A stretch of 64,000 bases of DNA from an uncultured Bacteroidales bacterium (GTDB taxonomy: Bacteria; Bacteroidota; Bacteroidia; Bacteroidales; F082), in NCBI GenBank assembly GCA_946185535.1, contig CAMHJX010000008.1:57391-121390 (forward strand), written 5' to 3'. Within the stretch, counting starts at the first letter, position 1, and every line of letters starts with the position of its first letter. Shown here in pieces: positions 55,817-64,000 of this stretch. The notes under the pieces are model-generated. The model had not been told where the DNA came from. It worked only from the letters and a program-made list of their open reading frames with translations, and did no database searches. Made by a program: the position numbers and the translations under genes.

Positions 55817-55854
55817 TGTAAAGTTTTGTTACACCACTGTAAAAAAATGTTACA
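55817..55854 (+). promoter_or_regulatory. Paired TGTAA-N7-TTACA sites, block A
   Basis: The two 17-bp palindromes TGTAAAGTTTTGTTACA (55817-55833) and TGTAAAAAAATGTTACA (55838-55854) have centres 21 bp apart, two helix turns. Blocks B and C at 60754 and 63913 have the same design. This looks like an upstream activating site for a sigma-54 enhancer-binding regulator. Confidence 0.75.
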
Positions 55855-55907
55855 CTTTGTTTTAAATCATAATTTTTAAATATTTGAATTTCAAATAGTT
55901 AAAATTT

Positions 55908-55923
55908 TGGCATGAGATATGTT
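55908..55923 (+). promoter_or_regulatory. Sigma-54-like -24/-12 promoter of the TolC operon
   Basis: TGGCATGAGATATGTT keeps the TGGCA of the -24 box and T-G at the -12 box. It starts 62 bp after the centre of the second palindrome, exactly as in block B (60783 to 60845). No TAnnTTTG box is seen before the TolC gene. Confidence 0.6.
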
Positions 55924-55945
55924 TTCTATTGGCACATAAAAAACT

Positions 55946-57361
55946 ATGTGTAATATGATAGCAAAACATACCTTTCTCATTTTGATGATGTCCGTTGGAG
56001 CCTTGACCAATGTCAAGGCCCAGGACACCGTCACCATGGACCTCAAATCCTGTATGCATTATGCCATGGAGCATTCCACCAAGATGCGCATTGCCCATGC
56101 CGACAACCGTGATGCACAGATCGACCGCCGCGATGCTATTCTTGCGGCCTTTACGCCTACGATTGAAGGAAGCACTTACGCCTATTCCAACTTTGGCCGC
56201 AGCATCGACCCTGAGACCAACACCTACATTAGGACGACCTCGTTCCATAATGGCTACAGCCTTTCGGCAGGCATCAACCTCTTCAACGGATTCCAGGCCG
56301 TCAACAACTTGAAAATCACTAAGACGGCACAGATGATGGGCTTGACCAAGGAACAGCAAACCGAAGACCAGATCTGTCTCGCCACCATGGAGGCGTACTG
56401 CAATGTGTTGTATTACAGTGAGATGCAGAAAGCCTTACAAGCGCAGGTGGCTACGGCAGAAAAAGCCGTGCAACTCGCTACAAGGCAGGAACAACTGGGA
56501 CAGAAATCCCACGCCGATGTGGTGCAGATGCAGAGCGACCTCGCCGAGCGACAGTACCAACTGACCACCTGTCGGAACAACCTCAACAATGCCGTCATCA
56601 CCCTGAAGGATGTGATGTTTTGGCCGATTGAAAAACCGTTGAAAATTGATGGGTTGGCTGTAGGGCTGTCACACCGTGGCAGCCGCATCATCAACGATTC
56701 GTTAGTGCGGCTGCCGCAATGCGACAGCCCTACAGACCAGGCTGAAAACATCGCCCAAATGGTGGAATTTGCCAAAACCAACATGCCTTCCGTCCTTTTG
56801 GCGAAAGGCACGATGAAAAACGCCCGTCTCGCCCTCAAAACGGCCCGTTGGCAGTTGCTGCCCCGCCTCTCGCTCTATGGTGGCTGGTCGTCGAGTTATT
56901 TCACCTATCCGGGTATGGAGGGCTATGTGCCCACGCCGTATCTCGAGCAGTTGAAGAACAACGGCGGCGAGTATGTGCAACTCTCGTTGAGCATCCCCAT
57001 CTTCGACCGCCTCTCGAAACATTCCAACATCGCAAAGCGAAAAAATGCCTACGACCGTGCCCAAGCCGATTATGAGCAGACGCTTCAAACGGTGGAGGCC
57101 GAGGTACGCCGCGCCATCGCCGACCGTGACGGCTCAGCCGATGCCCTGCGCCAAGCCGACACTCGTGCTGAATTACAGCAGGAGGCCTTCGCACTGAACA
57201 CCAAGCGCTTCGAGCAGGGCTTGATCTCGTCCATCGAATACCAAACGGCCTCAAACAACTACCTCAACGCCCTTGCGGAACAATTGAATGCCAGGCTTCA
57301 ATACTTTATCAAGAATAGTGTGGTTAATTATTATGGAGGGATACATTATATAGAACAGTAA
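55946..57361 (+). CDS. TolC-family outer-membrane efflux protein with repeat insertion
   Basis: The 471-residue protein has a signal peptide (MIAKHTFLILMMSVGALTNV, cut near KAQ) and the TolC opening TVTMDLKSCMHYAMEHSTKM. Two helical repeats follow. Residues of about 238-264 (GLAVGLSHRGSR ... LPQCDSPTDQ) are the translation of a 79-bp palindrome inserted between the two repeat halves, before AENIAQMVEF. The gene heads the unit with the MacB-like permease at 57537 and probably provides its outer-membrane channel. The ATG at 55955 (MIAK) may be the real start. Confidence 0.88.
   Translation: MCNMIAKHTFLILMMSVGALTNVKAQDTVTMDLKSCMHYAMEHSTKMRIAHADNRDAQIDRRDAILAAFTPTIEGSTYAYSNFGRSIDPETNTYIRTTSFHNGYSLSAGINLFNGFQAVNNLKITKTAQMMGLTKEQQTEDQICLATMEAYCNVLYYSEMQKALQAQVATAEKAVQLATRQEQLGQKSHADVVQMQSDLAERQYQLTTCRNNLNNAVITLKDVMFWPIEKPLKIDGLAVGLSHRGSRIINDSLVRLPQCDSPTDQAENIAQMVEFAKTNMPSVLLAKGTMKNARLALKTARWQLLPRLSLYGGWSSSYFTYPGMEGYVPTPYLEQLKNNGGEYVQLSLSIPIFDRLSKHSNIAKRKNAYDRAQADYEQTLQTVEAEVRRAIADRDGSADALRQADTRAELQQEAFALNTKRFEQGLISSIEYQTASNNYLNALAEQLNARLQYFIKNSVVNYYGGIHYIEQ
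56657..56735 (+). repeat. In-frame palindrome, GGCTGTAGGGCTGTC type, inside TolC gene
   Basis: CTGTAGGGCTGTC (56658-56670) is the exact reverse complement of GACAGCCCTACAG (56723-56735), and GGCAGCCGC pairs with GCGGCTGCC. The intergenic relative is at 17600-17677. The reading frame stays open through it. Confidence 0.9.
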
Positions 57362-57366
57362 AAGAG

Positions 57367-57496
57367 ATTCCCCTGCGGGGAATGGAGGTCTAAGGTCGTT
57401 TTTAACTGCGGCGGCCTGTGGCGATACAGATTGGCAACTTGTTCTTGCCGCCGCTATATAACTAAGACAAGCACTCCATTCCCGAAGGGAAACTCA
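57367..57496. repeat. Hairpin repeat, GATTCCC-GAAGGGAA family (copy 2)
   Basis: Outer arms GATTCCCCTGCGGGGAATGG and CCATTCCCGAAGGGAA and inner GCGGCGG and CCGCCGC can pair. It fills the gap between the TolC gene and the first MacB-like gene, ending 40 bp before the ATG. Confidence 0.85.
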
Positions 57497-57536
57497 ACAA
57501 ACAATTCAACAGTTAAACAATCAACACTTCAACAAT

Positions 57537-59870
57537 ATGAAAACCTACCTGAAATTCCTATCCCGCAACAAGCTCTACACCGCCATTGAGTTCATTGGAC
57601 TGAGCGTAGCCTTGGCTTTCGTCATCATCAGCTTCTGCTATGTGGTGCAGCAATACGCCGTGACGCGCGAGAACCCCGATCGCAAGCGGATTTATGCCAT
57701 GGGCGAAAATAAAAACATGATTAACTGCTATGGCATGAAAGAGGTCTTCGACGGAAAGTTGCCCGAGTTGGAAGCGGTGTCGCATTTCCAGTTCCTGCAA
57801 GATCAATTTCGTGTCGGTGAACAGAACTTTGCAGGCACGGCGCTCGTCTGCGATGTGGAATTCTTCGATATCTTCCCCGTGACGCTCAAAGAAGGCAGTC
57901 CTGGGATGCTTTCGGAACGCAATGTAGCATTTATCTCCGAAAAATTGGCCGAGAAACTGAATGAAGCGTCTGCTGAACAGCCGGTGATTTTTCAAGATGA
58001 CACGTTGCACATCGTAGGTGTTATTGCCGACAAAGGCAGTTCATTACTTCCCGATTTCGATGTGATGTTTAGCTTCGAACATGGACAGTCGTATGCTATC
58101 CGGGATTATCGCGACAATCCTTTCACCCACTGGGCCAATATCGGCACTTTCATCAAGGTGCGGCCTGGTGTGAACCGAGAAGAGTTAGCCGAGAAATTAC
58201 AGGCACTTTGTGATGTGCAATTTGCCAATAGCCCAACGATGGAAGAGCTTTCGATGTTTCGCTTTGACGAACTGTTTTTCGCTCCTGTTTACACGGGCTT
58301 GCAGAAAGGCGATCGTTCAATGCTTCGCACGATGATTGTCATTGGGTTGTTGTTACTCATTTCGGCCTTGCTGAATTACATCAACCTAAATGTCGCCTTG
58401 GTCGGGAAACGTGCCAAGGAAATGGCATCGAGACGACTGGTTGGGGCACAGAAGTCCGACATCATTTTGAAATTTCTCGGCGAGGCGCTTGCCTTTACTT
58501 TGTTCAGTTTCATCGTCGGGTTGGCAATAGCCTACGCCCTCACCCCTACCGTCAACCAATTGTTGCAGTCTGATGTGGCGATTTCCATACCTTTCAGTTT
58601 ACCTTACCTCGCTGCCTATCTTTTGATTGTGATAGTGGTGTCGATGCTGGCTGGCATCATGCCCGCCCTCATCGTTTCGCAGGTCAAACCCATCGACGTG
58701 GTGCGTGGCACCTTCCGCTTCCGTAACCGCTCTGTACTCTCGAAGGTATTCATCGTGGTGCAAAACGTCATCGCCATCGTGCTCATAGCCCTTGTGCTGA
58801 CGATGGAGCTTCAAATGCACCACATGGAGGACCGTTCAACGGGATTGAATCTGGATAACCTCTATTTTTTGGGTTCCGACCTTGATTACACGACTGAAAA
58901 GGAAGCCTATGTGGAAGAATTGAGAGCCTTGCCTTGCGTGAAGGAATTGGCATCGGCCAGCAATGTTCCTGGCGTGATGAGTATGCAGTTCTATTTGAAA
59001 AAGCTCCACGAAACCGAGCCGAAGACCCTCGTACCAGTCCTTACTTGCGATACGGTGGCATTCCGTATGCTTGGTTTTGAGGTGAAGGAACGTTTTGGCA
59101 ACACCGATGCCCATGGTTTCTGGATTACCGAAACCACCGCTGCGGGCATGACGGGCTTGCCATACGGCGACTACAATATGGACACTATCACAATGTGGCA
59201 AGAACACACCATAGGCAATACGATATGCGGAGTGATTGCCGACTTCAAGATGCAGGATGCCTTGCATGTGACCGATGAAGACTATGTAGTTGTATATGGC
59301 AATGGTGGTTGGCAACCTCGATCCTATTTGCTGATTGAGGTTGCTGGCGACCATCGTGAAGCCAAACGTGCCATAGATGCAGTGTATAAGAAACACTGCG
59401 AAAAGGTATTTGGCATCTACATTGAACCCGATTTCGATGATTTTGTGGAGAACGTGATTGCCAAGCAATACGACAAGCAACGTCGCCAGATGCGTCTCAT
59501 TGAGTTGATCATGGCGATTTCAGTCATCCTCTCACTGCTCGGCCTCGTGGCCATGAGCACGCATTTTGCTTCCGAGCGCGAGAAGACCATCGCCATCCGC
59601 AAAGTGTTTGGCGGCACGATGCAAAGCGAAATCCGTCGCAACCTGAAGGAATACATCATTATGATATTGATTGCCAACGCGATTGCCATTCCCGTAGCGG
59701 TGTGGCTCTGCAAACGTTATCTGGAGGACTTCGCCTATCGCATCGACTTGCACCCATGGATTTTCGTGGTCACGGTGGTGCTGTCGTTTGTGATTGCCAT
59801 CGGCTCGGTGCTTTGGCAAATCGTCTCGGTGGCACGGGTGAATCCGATTTGGGCACTGAAAAAAGAGTGA
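57537..59870 (+). CDS. MacB/FtsX-type ABC permease 1, no ATPase domain
   Basis: The 777-residue inner-membrane protein has the double layout of Bacteroidetes MacB-like permeases. A first segment lies at about 17-39, then a periplasmic core domain to about 260, and an FtsX block of three helices (around IVIGLLLLISALLNYINLNV and EALAFTLFSFIVGLAIAYAL). After a further segment (IVVQNVIAIVLIALVLTMEL) comes a second periplasmic domain and a C-terminal FtsX block with EREKTIAIRKVFGGTM. There is no Walker motif, so an ATPase encoded elsewhere is needed. It follows the TolC gene after a hairpin repeat. Confidence 0.9.
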   Translation: MKTYLKFLSRNKLYTAIEFIGLSVALAFVIISFCYVVQQYAVTRENPDRKRIYAMGENKNMINCYGMKEVFDGKLPELEAVSHFQFLQDQFRVGEQNFAGTALVCDVEFFDIFPVTLKEGSPGMLSERNVAFISEKLAEKLNEASAEQPVIFQDDTLHIVGVIADKGSSLLPDFDVMFSFEHGQSYAIRDYRDNPFTHWANIGTFIKVRPGVNREELAEKLQALCDVQFANSPTMEELSMFRFDELFFAPVYTGLQKGDRSMLRTMIVIGLLLLISALLNYINLNVALVGKRAKEMASRRLVGAQKSDIILKFLGEALAFTLFSFIVGLAIAYALTPTVNQLLQSDVAISIPFSLPYLAAYLLIVIVVSMLAGIMPALIVSQVKPIDVVRGTFRFRNRSVLSKVFIVVQNVIAIVLIALVLTMELQMHHMEDRSTGLNLDNLYFLGSDLDYTTEKEAYVEELRALPCVKELASASNVPGVMSMQFYLKKLHETEPKTLVPVLTCDTVAFRMLGFEVKERFGNTDAHGFWITETTAAGMTGLPYGDYNMDTITMWQEHTIGNTICGVIADFKMQDALHVTDEDYVVVYGNGGWQPRSYLLIEVAGDHREAKRAIDAVYKKHCEKVFGIYIEPDFDDFVENVIAKQYDKQRRQMRLIELIMAISVILSLLGLVAMSTHFASEREKTIAIRKVFGGTMQSEIRRNLKEYIIMILIANAIAIPVAVWLCKRYLEDFAYRIDLHPWIFVVTVVLSFVIAIGSVLWQIVSVARVNPIWALKKE

Positions 59871-59880
59871 AAAACAATAC

Positions 59881-59929
59881 TGAGTTTTTTCCAAAATTGC
59901 TAAAAATCGATAATTTTGGAAAAAACTCA
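59881..59929. repeat. Perfect palindrome before the ATPase remnant
   Basis: Arms of 18 bp (TGAGTTTTTTCCAAAATT and its exact complement) enclose a 13-base loop. It lies directly behind the permease stop and 23 bp before a -7 box. A close relative is at 60684-60730. Confidence 0.9.
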
Positions 59930-59951
59930 TTTCTATTTTGAGGAATTTCCA

Positions 59952-59959
59952 TACCTTTG
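59952..59959 (+). promoter_or_regulatory. -7 box of the ATPase remnant
   Basis: TACCTTTG (TAnnTTTG) lies 25 bp before the ATG at 59985. Confidence 0.55.
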
Positions 59960-59984
59960 CTTGTGAAAACAACAAAGGACAATT

Positions 59985-60646
59985 ATGGATAAGCTGATAG
60001 GTAGAGAACAGGAAATCAAGTTGCTAAAAGAGTACACCAAATCAGAGCGGCCTGAGTTCGTCGCCATTTATGGAAGAAGACGGGTCGGAAAGACCTTGTC
60101 AATTGCGATATTATCCGCAAATATGTGGTGAGGGAGAAAAATGTAAAGAAGAACTCAGCCATCTACCAGCTGACGGATTTCTATTCACTGTTCTACCTGA
60201 CGTTTGTCGCCAAAGCTGAGGCGGAAACAGGTTATTGGTGCAACCATATCGGGACATCGGAAGTGAACGCCTGGCTCGGTTTGAGTTTTGAGCGGTTGTG
60301 CATGGCACACGTCGCCCAAATTAAACAAGCATTGCGGATTGACCGTATCGCCACCAAGTTCTACTCATGGCGAAGCAAGAGCACAAACCCCAAGGCACAG
60401 ATAGACATGATTTTGGAACGTGCGGACGGAATTATCAACATTTTTGAGATGAAATATAGCGAGGCGGAATACATGCTGAGTAAGGAGGAAGAGGAAAAGT
60501 TGCGCAGTAGGGTCTCAAAGTTTCGCGAGGAAACGGGAGTCAAGGAAGCATTGTGGCCAACACTTGTAACGACCTATGGCCTTAAGAATGGCATCCATTC
60601 TTCCAGTTTTGTCGCTACATTAACCACGGACGACCTGTTTTTGTAA
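59985..60646 (+). pseudogene. Decayed AAA ATPase (DUF234-type), internal deletion
   Basis: The first 38 codons (MDKLIGREQEIKLLKEYTKS, then FVAIYGRRRVGKT with the P-loop) belong to the common Bacteroidetes ATP-binding family. The frame then breaks (stop at 60129) and continues in another frame with CDIIRKYVVREKN, NSAIYQLTDFYSLFYLTF and the nuclease-like end KAQIDMILERADGIINIFEM ... LVTTYGLKNG. Roughly 200 residues of the middle, including Walker B and the sensor region, are missing. The gene is dead. Palindromes lie on both sides. Confidence 0.85.
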
Positions 60647-60683
60647 AGCAGATCCTTTCTCTGAATCTTCTTGAGAAAGCATC

Positions 60684-60730
60684 GAGTTTTTTCCAAAGTT
60701 GTCAAAATTGATTGGTTTTGGAAAAAACTC
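60684..60730. repeat. Palindrome behind the ATPase remnant
   Basis: GAGTTTTTTCCAAA (60684-60697) and TTTGGAAAAAACTC (60717-60730) are perfect complements. The arms are the same as in the palindrome at 59881-59929, so the ATPase remnant is bracketed by two copies. Confidence 0.9.
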
Positions 60731-60753
60731 AATTTTGCGCGATAACTATGCAC

Positions 60754-60791
60754 TGTAAAGTTTCTTTACACCACTGTAAAATAACTTTACA
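60754..60791 (+). promoter_or_regulatory. Paired TGTAA-N7-TTACA sites, block B
   Basis: TGTAAAGTTTCTTTACA (60754-60770; arms of seven) and TGTAAAATAACTTTACA (60775-60791) have centres 21 bp apart, as in blocks A and C. Confidence 0.78.
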
Positions 60792-60844
60792 CTTTGTAAA
60801 ATAGCTGTTTTTGTATTTCGTTGATTACTATTGATTTGCAATTT

Positions 60845-60860
60845 TGGCACAAGGCTTGGT
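60845..60860 (+). promoter_or_regulatory. Sigma-54-like -24/-12 promoter of permease 2
   Basis: TGGCACAAGGCTTGGT fits TGGCAC-N5-TTGCW except for one base in the -12 box (G for C). It starts 62 bp downstream of the centre of the second palindrome. A transcript from here would begin near 60872 and carry the hairpin repeat as leader. Confidence 0.72.
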
Positions 60861-60882
60861 ATATGGGTGAATGATAAATAAA

Positions 60883-61008
60883 GATTCCCTGCGGGAATGG
60901 AGGTTAGAGTTTTGTTTACTGCGGCGGCCTGTGGCGCTACAGATTGGTAACAAGTTTTTGCCGCCGCTTATAACGAACAAACAACACTCCATTCCCGAAG
61001 GGAAACTC
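60883..61008. repeat. Hairpin repeat, GATTCCC-GAAGGGAA family (copy 3)
   Basis: The same arms and inner GCGGCGG/CCGCCGC pairs as at 57367-57496, ending 39 bp before the ATG of permease 2. The spacing to the start codon is nearly the same as for permease 1 (40 bp). Confidence 0.88.
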
Positions 61009-61047
61009 AACAAACAATTCAACAGTTAAACAAACAACAATTAAACC

Positions 61048-63417
61048 ATGAATAGCATATCCGACAAACTCATCAAAATCCTATCGTTAGGCATAGGTCT
61101 CGCCATTGGCATCGTGCTAATTGCCAAGGTGTGCTTCGAATTGTCGTACGACAGTTTCTACAAGGACGTGGACCGAATCTATATGATCACGGAAAACATC
61201 ATCTTCCAAGAGGGCGGCGACCCCGATGACTATTGGGGCACTTCGGGCGGCATTGCGCCGGGCTTCAAGGCTGAAGTGCCGGGCGTGGAAGCTGCTACGC
61301 GCTATTCCAACCTGCTCAACGGTAACCTTTATGACGAAAACAACAACCTCATCACAGGACTATGCATTGGTGCCGACACCTGCTTCTTCGACTTTTTCGA
61401 CCGCGAATTCCTTGCGGGCGACCCGATGCAGGCTTTGCAACAATACAATGGAGACATTGCCGTCAGCCGCAGTTTTGCGGAGAAGTTGGGCGGCGTGAAC
61501 GAGGCCATTGGCAAACAAATCTATAGTGAAGTTTGGGGACCAAAAACAAGACTGACTGTGGTGGGTGTTTTTGAAGATTTTCCGGAGAATGGCAGCGTAC
61601 AATGCGACATCGTGACGGCCATTGCTGCCTTCGGTGAGTGGAGCATCAACAACTGGCTAGGCAACGACCGTTATCGCAGCTTTGTCAGGCTGGCGCCCAA
61701 TGTGGACCCCAACAGCCTGAAGGATGCCATCCGTAAGATGCAGGAAGCACACCAGCCTTTGGAGGAGTTGGAGCGTGATGGCTCCACGATTTGGTACACG
61801 CTGACCCCTCTTGCCACCATGCATCGTCATGAGCCTACTATCAAAAACTATGTGTTGATTCTTTCGGTGGTGGCGGCCTTGCTGCTTTTGGTCTCGGTGC
61901 TCAACTACCTGCTAATGGCGGTTTCGGATGTGGTGCGCCGCTCCAAAGAAATGGGTGTCAGGAAGTGCTACGGTGCCAGCGCAGGAAGCATTTACGGAAT
62001 GCTCATCAAAGAGACGGCTTTGAACCTGCTGGCTTCGTTGGCAGTGGCGGCCTTGGTGATATGGGCTTTCAGCGGGGTCATCGAGTCGTTGTTGGGCGTA
62101 CCGGTTGCCAGCCTTATGGTGCCGCAAACACGATGGGTGCTTGTCGGTATCATCGCTTTCATTTTCCTAGTCTCGGCGCTCATTCCCGCGATGATGTTCG
62201 TCAGGATTCCCGTTTCGACGGCCTTCAGCGGTTACAAGGAAAACAAGCGCCGTTGGAAACTCTCGTTGCTGATGTTGCAGATTGGCATCAATGCCATCCT
62301 GCTACCTATGGTTCTCGTGGCCGACGGACAATATGACAGGGCGTTGAATGCCGACATGGGCTACGAATATGAGCATTTGTTGTATTCCCCGTTGAGAGGC
62401 GCAGATAAGGACAAATTGATACTGATTACGGAGAAACTGCGGCAATATCCCGAGGTGGAGGCCGCCGAACTGACCTATTGCATCCCCTTGGATAAGACAT
62501 CGGGAAACAACATCATGCTGCCCGACAACCCAACGAAGTATTTGATGGGCGTGTGCGACCAATACATGGCGACGGAAGGTTTCTTCGACATGATGGGCTT
62601 CCGTTTGATAGAGGGCAAGGCGCCTTCAAAGCCGAAGGATGTGGCCGTGAGTCAAAGTTTTGTGAAGGAGATGAACCTTTATGCCGACTGGAGCGATGGC
62701 GCTGTGGGCAAGGACATCCTGATTTCGGAGCACAGCGATGGCGACGATGACGTTTACACTATTTGTGGCGTTTATGAAGATTATGTCATCGGATCGATGT
62801 TGGGCAACGACGACCGTGCGAGCATCCGCTTCTGTTGGAACATGGATTGGAACTATGGCCCCGAAGACTGGTCGAGGGTGATGAACACCTTGGTGGTGAA
62901 GGTGCGCGAGGTGAATCCCGAAGCCATCGCCAAGGTGAAGGCGGTCATCGAGGAATGTCTGCCCGAGCGGAACAATGTCGAAGTGACGCCTTACACCGAA
63001 TTGGTCAAGAAGGAGTACACCCACCTGTATCAGATGCGGCGCACATTCATTATAGGTGCCTTGTTCGCTTTGGCGATTGCCTTGTTTGGTCTGATAGGCT
63101 TTGTGCGCGACGAGGCCAACCGCCGCAGCAAGGAAGTGGCCATTCGCAAGGTGAACGGTGCGGTGGCGGGCGAAATCATCCGTATGTTCGTGGCAGATGT
63201 GTTGAAACTAGCTGTGATTGCCGCCTTAATTGGTGTGGCGATAGCCTATTTCCTCGCCGACAAATGGTTGGAGTTGTTCGCCATGCGCATCGGCCTCTCG
63301 CCACTCTATTTCGTCATCGGTGCGGTGATGGTCTTGCTTATCGTGACCGCCGTGGTTGTCATAAGCAGCAACCGCGTTGCCCGAATGAATCCTGTTAAGT
63401 CTTTGAAGAATAATTGA
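61048..63417 (+). CDS. MacB/FtsX-type ABC permease 2, no ATPase domain
   Basis: The 789-residue protein has the same plan as permease 1: first helix at about 11-29 (ILSLGIGLAIGIVLIAKVCF), periplasmic domain, FtsX block (VLILSVVAALLLLVSVLNYL, RSKEMGVRKCYGA), a middle helix, second periplasmic domain and a C-terminal FtsX block (RSKEVAIRKVNGA, then helices to VVISSNRVARMNPVKSLKNN). It is a distinct paralogue and not a recent copy of permease 1. Its own sigma-54-like promoter and paired sites precede it. Substrates of such arrays in Bacteroidetes are thought to be drugs, peptides or lipoproteins. Confidence 0.9.
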   Translation: MNSISDKLIKILSLGIGLAIGIVLIAKVCFELSYDSFYKDVDRIYMITENIIFQEGGDPDDYWGTSGGIAPGFKAEVPGVEAATRYSNLLNGNLYDENNNLITGLCIGADTCFFDFFDREFLAGDPMQALQQYNGDIAVSRSFAEKLGGVNEAIGKQIYSEVWGPKTRLTVVGVFEDFPENGSVQCDIVTAIAAFGEWSINNWLGNDRYRSFVRLAPNVDPNSLKDAIRKMQEAHQPLEELERDGSTIWYTLTPLATMHRHEPTIKNYVLILSVVAALLLLVSVLNYLLMAVSDVVRRSKEMGVRKCYGASAGSIYGMLIKETALNLLASLAVAALVIWAFSGVIESLLGVPVASLMVPQTRWVLVGIIAFIFLVSALIPAMMFVRIPVSTAFSGYKENKRRWKLSLLMLQIGINAILLPMVLVADGQYDRALNADMGYEYEHLLYSPLRGADKDKLILITEKLRQYPEVEAAELTYCIPLDKTSGNNIMLPDNPTKYLMGVCDQYMATEGFFDMMGFRLIEGKAPSKPKDVAVSQSFVKEMNLYADWSDGAVGKDILISEHSDGDDDVYTICGVYEDYVIGSMLGNDDRASIRFCWNMDWNYGPEDWSRVMNTLVVKVREVNPEAIAKVKAVIEECLPERNNVEVTPYTELVKKEYTHLYQMRRTFIIGALFALAIALFGLIGFVRDEANRRSKEVAIRKVNGAVAGEIIRMFVADVLKLAVIAALIGVAIAYFLADKWLELFAMRIGLSPLYFVIGAVMVLLIVTAVVVISSNRVARMNPVKSLKNN

Positions 63418-63436
63418 TATGGAAACAATGTATATA

Positions 63437-63564
63437 GATTCCCTGCGGGAATGGAGGTCAGAGGATTTTGTTCACCGCGGCGGCCTGTGGCGCTACAGAT
63501 TGGTAACTTGTTCTTGCCGCCGCTTATAACGAACAAACAACACTCCATTCCCGAAGGGAAACTC
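63437..63564. repeat. Hairpin repeat, GATTCCC-GAAGGGAA family (copy 4)
   Basis: Nearly the same as copy 3 in sequence. Unlike copies 2 and 3 it is not followed by a permease start. Confidence 0.88.
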
Positions 63565-63581
63565 AACAAACAATTAAACAA

Positions 63582-63719
63582 TTAAACAAAGAACAACGCA
63601 TCGCCTTTTACCTCACGGGATACTTTCCGCGAGTACATGTTGTCCAACAGCCCGTTCGGGGTGATAAACGCTGGTAACAAAGACTTCCGCGTTTTGGTGA
63701 CCTTTCGGAAGATACGCAT
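63582..63719 (-). pseudogene. C-terminal remnant of a second AAA ATPase
   Basis: The 45-codon frame MRIFRKVTKTRKSLLPAFIT, then PNGLLDNMYSRKV and VKGDALFFV, corresponds to the last 40 or so residues of the same ATP-binding family as the remnant at 59985-60646 (compare ALWPTLVTTYGLKNG ... TTDDLFL). The P-loop part is gone. An intact -7 box lies upstream at 63738-63745, so a small peptide may still be made. Confidence 0.65.
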
Positions 63720-63737
63720 TCTGCGTGCGAGTTGGCT

Positions 63738-63745
63738 CAAAGTTA
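63738..63745 (-). promoter_or_regulatory. -7 box of the second ATPase remnant
   Basis: The minus strand reads TAACTTTG (TAnnTTTG), 19 bp before the ATG at 63719. Confidence 0.5.
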
Positions 63746-63755
63746 CAAAAAAATT

Positions 63756-63796
63756 GAGATTGCGCCAACTTTGATGTAGAATTCTGGCGTAATCTC
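63756..63796. repeat. Palindrome upstream of the second ATPase remnant
   Basis: GAGATTGCGCC and GGCGTAATCTC pair in ten of eleven positions around a 19-base loop. The first ATPase remnant has a palindrome in the same place relative to its promoter. Confidence 0.7.
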
Positions 63797-63912
63797 GATA
63801 TTTTTATGAGATTTAGCCAAGAAACTCTATTTTTATACACTTTTTCGGTAGTATTTTGGTTGAAAAGATTCAATTTTTCAAACATGCTCAAATAATAAAG
63901 TGTAAAAGCAAG

Positions 63913-63950
63913 TGTAAAGTTTCTTTACACCACTGTAAAAAAACGTTACA
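63913..63950 (+). promoter_or_regulatory. Paired TGTAA-N7-TTACA sites, block C
   Basis: TGTAAAGTTTCTTTACA (63913-63929) and TGTAAAAAAACGTTACA (63934-63950) have centres 21 bp apart. The sequence after them matches block B up to the window end, so a further promoter and permease probably lie just outside. Confidence 0.75.
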
Positions 63951-64000
63951 CTTTGTAAAATAGCTGTTTTTGTATTTCGTTGATTATTATTGATTTGCAA

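Follow-up and report, generated by a model that had tools for sequence, protein, structure and literature searches.

A repeated, predicted sigma-54 enhancer-promoter block and its candidate NtrC-type regulator in a MacB-like exporter array of an uncultured Bacteroidales bacterium

How the separate segments of a large exporter array might be switched on together is the question raised by contig C8 of an uncultured Bacteroidales genome (3.67 Mb, 86 contigs), of which positions C8:57391-121390 were analysed; this whole stretch of 64,000 nucleotides is referred to as the window. Three pairs of TGTAA-N7-TTACA palindromes (dyads), 21 bp apart within each pair (55817/55838, 60754/60775 and 63913/63934), occur among exporter genes, and all six palindromes were found where a preliminary description of the window had placed them, against a mean of 0.06 and a maximum of one after shuffling. 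The features of the locus, all on the + strand, are listed below.

55817..55833, +, putative distal enhancer dyad of Block A, TGTAAAGTTTTGTTACA
55838..55854, +, putative proximal enhancer dyad of Block A, TGTAAAAAAATGTTACA
55908..55923, +, predicted sigma-54 -24/-12 element of Block A, TGGCATGAGATATGTT, 62 bp past the proximal dyad centre
55946..57361, +, TolC-family outer membrane efflux protein, first gene of the array (PF02321, E 1e-46)
57537..59870, +, duplicated MacB/FtsX-type permease, 777 aa, eight TM-like windows, no ATPase domain found
60125..60646, +, DUF234/DUF4143-like gene fragment between the two permeases (Pfam matches below curated cut-offs)
60754..60770, +, putative distal enhancer dyad of Block B
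60775..60791, +, putative proximal enhancer dyad of Block B
60845..60860, +, predicted sigma-54 element of Block B, TGGCACAAGGCTTGGT, 62 bp past the proximal dyad centre
61048..63417, +, second duplicated MacB/FtsX-type permease, 789 aa
63913..63929, +, putative distal enhancer dyad of the third block
63934..63950, +, putative proximal enhancer dyad of the third block, with a sigma-54 element expected from 64004

Block A heads the TolC gene and then a permease gene, Block B heads the second permease, and the third block stands at the contig end. Both complete blocks carry TGGCA 62 bp after the second dyad centre, at 55908 and 60845, as the preliminary description had it. Sigma-54 promoters have the consensus TGGCAYRNNNNTTGCW, from which the Block B element differs by one base, in agreement with the earlier reading; the Block A element is a weaker match, and in place of GC the two elements have GT (Block A) and GG (Block B). 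The contig ends at window base 64000, four bases short of the element expected in the third block, so the bases beyond are not readable in this genome; in the relative G071, the block that matches the third one carries TGGCACGAGGATTGG / TGGCACGAGG exactly 62 bp past the dyad centre. TAnnTTTG boxes, described earlier as absent before the array genes and present before most others, were indeed not found within 250 bp upstream of the three array ORFs in the window; 'most others' is overstated, with boxes in the same interval before 12 of 44 crude window ORFs, operon-internal ORFs included, and before about half (11/23, counted by hand) of the non-array ORFs with an upstream gap of at least 30 bp.

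Sixteen TGTAA-N7-TTACA dyads occur genome-wide (reversed-pattern control, five): six in the window, six on contig C10 and one each on C71, C3, C1 and C26. Those on C10 form three pairs, each followed by a TGGCAC element and then a permease gene, while the C71 dyad lies near the end of a short contig and has a degenerate partner; no TGGCA was found within the 133 bp inspected on either side of the C1 and C26 dyads. A dyad with TGGCA at the block spacing is present at six sites, of which the window has two, C10 three and C71 one; each of the six precedes an exporter gene or lies on an array contig. The reversed-pattern control for this search gave two, and that for a stricter pattern none. Contig C71 encodes a permease, an HlyD-type adaptor, a second permease and an ABC ATPase, and the array part on C10 terminates in a response regulator gene and a kinase gene, next to the rest of the array, where the preliminary description had suggested looking for an NtrC-type regulator. 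The order of these parts, on contigs that are not joined here, would be C8-C71-C10, which relatives support: G071:C39 joins the C8 and C71 parts, and G096:C18 connects the C10 part with the end of the C71 part. When fragments belonging to one gene are counted once, the array of this genome has nine permeases, as does that of G110, which runs on a single contig from TolC at C6:88440, with an upstream element reading TGGCATGCGATATGCT, to the regulator and kinase at C6:122534; TolC, permeases, adaptor, ATPase, regulator and kinase also share one contig in G106 and G067.

Whether the TGGCA element behaves as a sigma-54 promoter was examined by searching with the dyad and TGGCA only, and then reading the bases outside the search pattern. 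The set comprised 48 sites from the genome's own, same-genus and named-relative loci, with exact duplicates removed, near copies kept, and one of 49 (spacer 60) left out. Position 14, corresponding to the -12 G and outside the search pattern, is G in 48/48 sites compared with 1/11 chance matches in other genera, and positions 6 and 7 are C or T and A or G, respectively, in every site; TG occupies positions 13-14 in 45 sites and GC positions 14-15 in 33, which conforms to GG and GC ten bases apart (TGGCAYR-N5-TGC). In all 48 sites TGGCA lies 61-64 bp from the dyad centre, so that the 62-bp spacing claimed earlier is exact in the complete window blocks and varies slightly in relatives. A partner dyad, with at most one mismatch in ten and 19-22 bp away, accompanies 44/48 sites, the dyad-to-dyad distance in relatives being 19-23 bp. 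Among the matches listed, with lengths of 70-82 allowed, match length is 74-77 in 134 of 137 same-genus rows (one of the other three reading a counted site a second time) and in 4 of 13 rows from other genera, as chance gives. At the level of the order, a pair pattern that allowed either TGTA or TGTC half-sites gave 63 sites in 32/393 genomes, with none for the reversed-pattern control; among the 30 sites read, the -12 G is present in 27 and absent in three, the dyad-TGGCA distance is 61-64 bp in 27 and 65-66 bp in three, and an ORF for TolC, a permease, an adaptor or an ATPase follows 23 sites, the other seven having no recognised exporter ORF adjacent.

The same dyad pair is carried by eight viral contigs (L016-L023), in which neither TGGCA at the block distance nor any ORF similar to the exporter proteins was found, and the paired palindrome alone was consequently rejected as a sufficient marker; the viral pairs are possibly operators of another regulator. 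Were the array dyads likewise operators of a regulator that does not act through sigma-54, for example a repressor, with TGGCA incidental, the viral contigs would be readily accommodated. The nearly fixed dyad-TGGCA spacing and the invariant -12 G outside the search pattern argue against this, as do the co-occurrence of an enhancer-binding protein with the motif and the correspondence between dyad type and its recognition helix described below, and such a reading is very unlikely. Outside the array, a dyad pair with CGGCATGAGGATTGC at 62 bp (C3:20072-20167) lies upstream of an outer-membrane beta-barrel gene (L035:5700-8030) unlinked to the array; since a search for the CGGCA version across 98 genus genomes gave matches in only three, this genome included, the C3 target may be local to this species.

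Likeness between blocks could also reflect history rather than function, promoter and permease having been copied together by gene duplication; Block B and the third block are nearly identical across the 88 bp visible in both, and the permeases are paralogues. Across genera, however, the dyad-TGGCA spacer diverges while the dyads, the spacing and the -24/-12 bases stay, and blocks are also found before TolC, HlyD and ATPase genes, none of them a copy of another; duplication as the whole explanation is extremely improbable. The favoured reading of the repeated block is a sigma-54 promoter with a paired upstream enhancer.

Components for such a promoter are present, as the preliminary description required: the genome has one copy of rpoN (PF04552, E 1.3e-50) and four strong PF00158 matches, representing clear enhancer-binding proteins encoded on C10, C1, C37 and C6, with three weaker matches at 22-37 bits. 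The C10 regulator (gene at C10:91295-92650, with the kinase gene directly after) comprises a receiver, an AAA+ sigma-54 activation domain and a Fis-type HTH, and its PF00158 match, HTH and GAFTGA-type loop identify it as an enhancer-binding protein with the loop variant GAFTDA. This variant occurs in 67/82 loop matches among ORFs of genome-contig relatives, other enhancer-binding proteins included; two other enhancer-binding proteins of this genome (L024, L027) have GSFTSA at the sigma-54 loop. GAFTDA is among the loop variants that would keep activity according to the available text of PMC4641369, citing its reference 2, and sigma-54 was not found in a pull-down of VfmH, which also has GAFTDA, in a study whose available text leaves sigma-54 activation through such a loop open (PMC10714721). 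A single TM-like window marks the start of the kinase, and its histidine motif, HEIMN, falls at residue 87; most of the relatives' kinases in the first 45 rows have one TM-like window or two close together, leaving no room for a large external domain in most of those listed.

With four clear enhancer-binding proteins in the genome, the blocks could be sigma-54 promoters at which the C1, C37 or C6 protein acts on the dyads. Only the C10 protein sits among array genes, relatives of it lie beside dyad pairs in many genomes, and dyad type follows the helix of the C10 family, leaving the involvement of one of the other three highly improbable. Among the matches listed, 60 of the 61 genus genomes whose regulator is at least 64% identical to the C10 protein carry the motif, compared with 1/16 with a regulator 52-59% identical and 11/20 without a regulator match at E 1e-100 (most of these 11 being incomplete MAGs, and two being 91% and 97% complete); two further genus genomes with a regulator match of unlisted identity, counted separately, both carry it. 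The association gives a Fisher p of 7e-14, relatedness ignored. The sole genome with a close (at least 64%) regulator and no motif is G069, and no recognised exporter gene was found in the stretches read around the G045, G065 and G069 regulators. A C10-type regulator adjoins array permeases in each of the five relatives (G095, G110, G106, G067 and G096) for which a longer array was read, and 24 of 27 non-genus genomes with the pair pattern have a regulator match at E 1e-110, and in 14 of these 24 a pair and the regulator gene share a locus of a few kb.

Dyad sequence also varies with the regulator. Arrays were grouped by recognition helix, with five of 40 groups dropped for want of a regulator or pair and only the best match used where there were several regulators: SRPTLY-type (P) helices accompany TGTA half-sites in 124/124 cases (19 arrays), and SRQTLY-type (Q) helices accompany TGTC in 50/64 (16 arrays). 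Because part of the P set came from a TGTAA search, the non-genus genomes of the order search form a fairer subset, in which six P genomes have TGTA at 24/24 half-sites and 15 Q genomes have TGTC at 46/60. On a tree built without the HTH and omitting one divergent row (L066_1), the 38 rows with both traits show no discord when dyads are scored simply as all-TGTA or otherwise; there are only two changes of each trait, amounting to two independent changes, and with only two such pairs the sign test (p 0.5) falls short of significance. The dyad sequence thus appears to follow one recognition-helix residue, P or Q, a pattern that is suggestive and not proof; the position presumably matches one DNA-contact residue of NtrC.

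Taken with these observations, it is very probable that one sigma-54 enhancer-binding regulator, acting through the repeated blocks, switches on the whole exporter array; the preliminary description had proposed as much, and none of the refuting tests that could be run went against it. In the proposed mechanism the kinase would phosphorylate the regulator on a signal, and the regulator would bind the two dyads, about two helical turns apart, contact sigma-54 polymerase at the TGGCAYR-N5-TG(C/T) element 61-64 bp downstream and open the promoter, from which transcription would start. We infer that the direction of control is activation and, because the array segments begin with the same block, that a single regulator would turn on all parts of a tripartite set consisting of TolC, an adaptor, one ABC ATPase and about nine duplicated MacB-like permeases. 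A broader reading, in which a GAFTDA clade in Bacteroidales governs MacB-like arrays through one nearly fixed enhancer-promoter geometry, the SRPTLY/SRQTLY residue change resets TGTA to TGTC, and the exporters themselves drive a kinase that has no external sensor domain, in the manner of Bce systems, is tentative and as a whole rather doubtful.

The candidate regulator shares its receiver, AAA+ and Fis-type HTH domains with NtrC/ZraR/AtoC-type proteins; its best PDB relative is the NtrC-family structure 4l4u (E 8.7e-87, residues 7-451), and among NCBIfam models it matches PEP_resp_reg, AtoC and NtrC best, each with a score under the cut-off. It differs from that type in the GAFTDA loop, the TGTAA-N7-TTACA dyads and the prediction of one regulator for serially repeated blocks. 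With the darobactin exporter DarBCD plus TolC, the array has in common a duplicated permease, an HlyD-type adaptor and a separate ABC ATPase; scores against the DarB, DarC and DarD models are 71, 208 and 279 bits, below their cut-offs of 700, 450 and 375, by which the array does not qualify as DarBCD, and there are here about nine permeases per one adaptor and one ATPase. MacB_PCD and FtsX domains, an adaptor and TolC are shared with MacAB-TolC, whereas the ATPase is here separate from a duplicated permease; MacB is a four-TM permease fused to its ATPase, and the window permeases, with eight TM-like windows and no ATPase match, are not of that kind. In the available text of PMC5985334, MacAB is described as under PhoPQ control in Salmonella and E. 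coli. BceRS-BceAB, described there too, resembles the array in having MacB-superfamily permeases next to a two-component system, with a kinase that lacks a large external sensor domain; here, by contrast, the response regulator is NtrC-type, and by analogy one may guess that the kinase is linked to exporter activity, through physical coupling to the permeases, as in Bce systems.

Sigma-54 control of FtsX-like permeases in Bacteroidia is already predicted in print: PMC12316311 (2025) predicts sigma-54 promoters before COG0577/FtsX-like permeases in Bacteroidia, gamma-Proteobacteria and Opitutia, which it calls first evidence, and its main text contains no occurrence of 'UAS', 'upstream activat' or 'EBP binding'. 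Sigma-54 promoters have been mapped in Flavobacterium for chaperones, gliding and exported proteins (PMC9723704), the main text of which has no occurrence of 'abc transporter' and three mentions of 'efflux' that concern other responses. No title or abstract opening in the open-library listings searched was found to describe this array's regulator or enhancer. The mechanism class is textbook; new here are the enhancer, the identity of the regulator, the array-wide repeated geometry and the co-variation of operator and helix. A predicted regulator, enhancer and promoters can now be named for a large exporter array of gut-type Bacteroidales, turning the general prediction of PMC12316311 into a testable circuit. 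The array regulators also provide a natural example of operator choice that seems to depend on one position of the recognition helix, against a nearly constant enhancer-promoter geometry.

Several further observations concern the wider setting of such loci. Genes lying between the exporter genes encode Fic with DUF4172, HipA with an HTH partner, AbiEii beside DUF6922, and AAA_14/DUF4143 ATPases, which are toxin-antitoxin-like or related (L033:13027-14316, L034:2084-3497, L036:7410-8317, L033:6664-7881 and L033:17199-18536), and ORFs of similar size recur between exporter genes in relatives. At L161:15650-16555 of G110, a block precedes a DUF2807 (head GIN domain) protein rather than a pump part. 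In Hymenobacter relatives (L107, L108 and L121), exporter genes are preceded by TGGCACG-type elements, and the accompanying palindromes are different ones, such as CCGAACACTCTGTCCGG. The closest named relatives of the regulator, at 97% identity, come from uncultured Bacteroidales MAGs, several bearing RUG names, which we take to denote rumen genomes, and the host bacterium is probably from the rumen.
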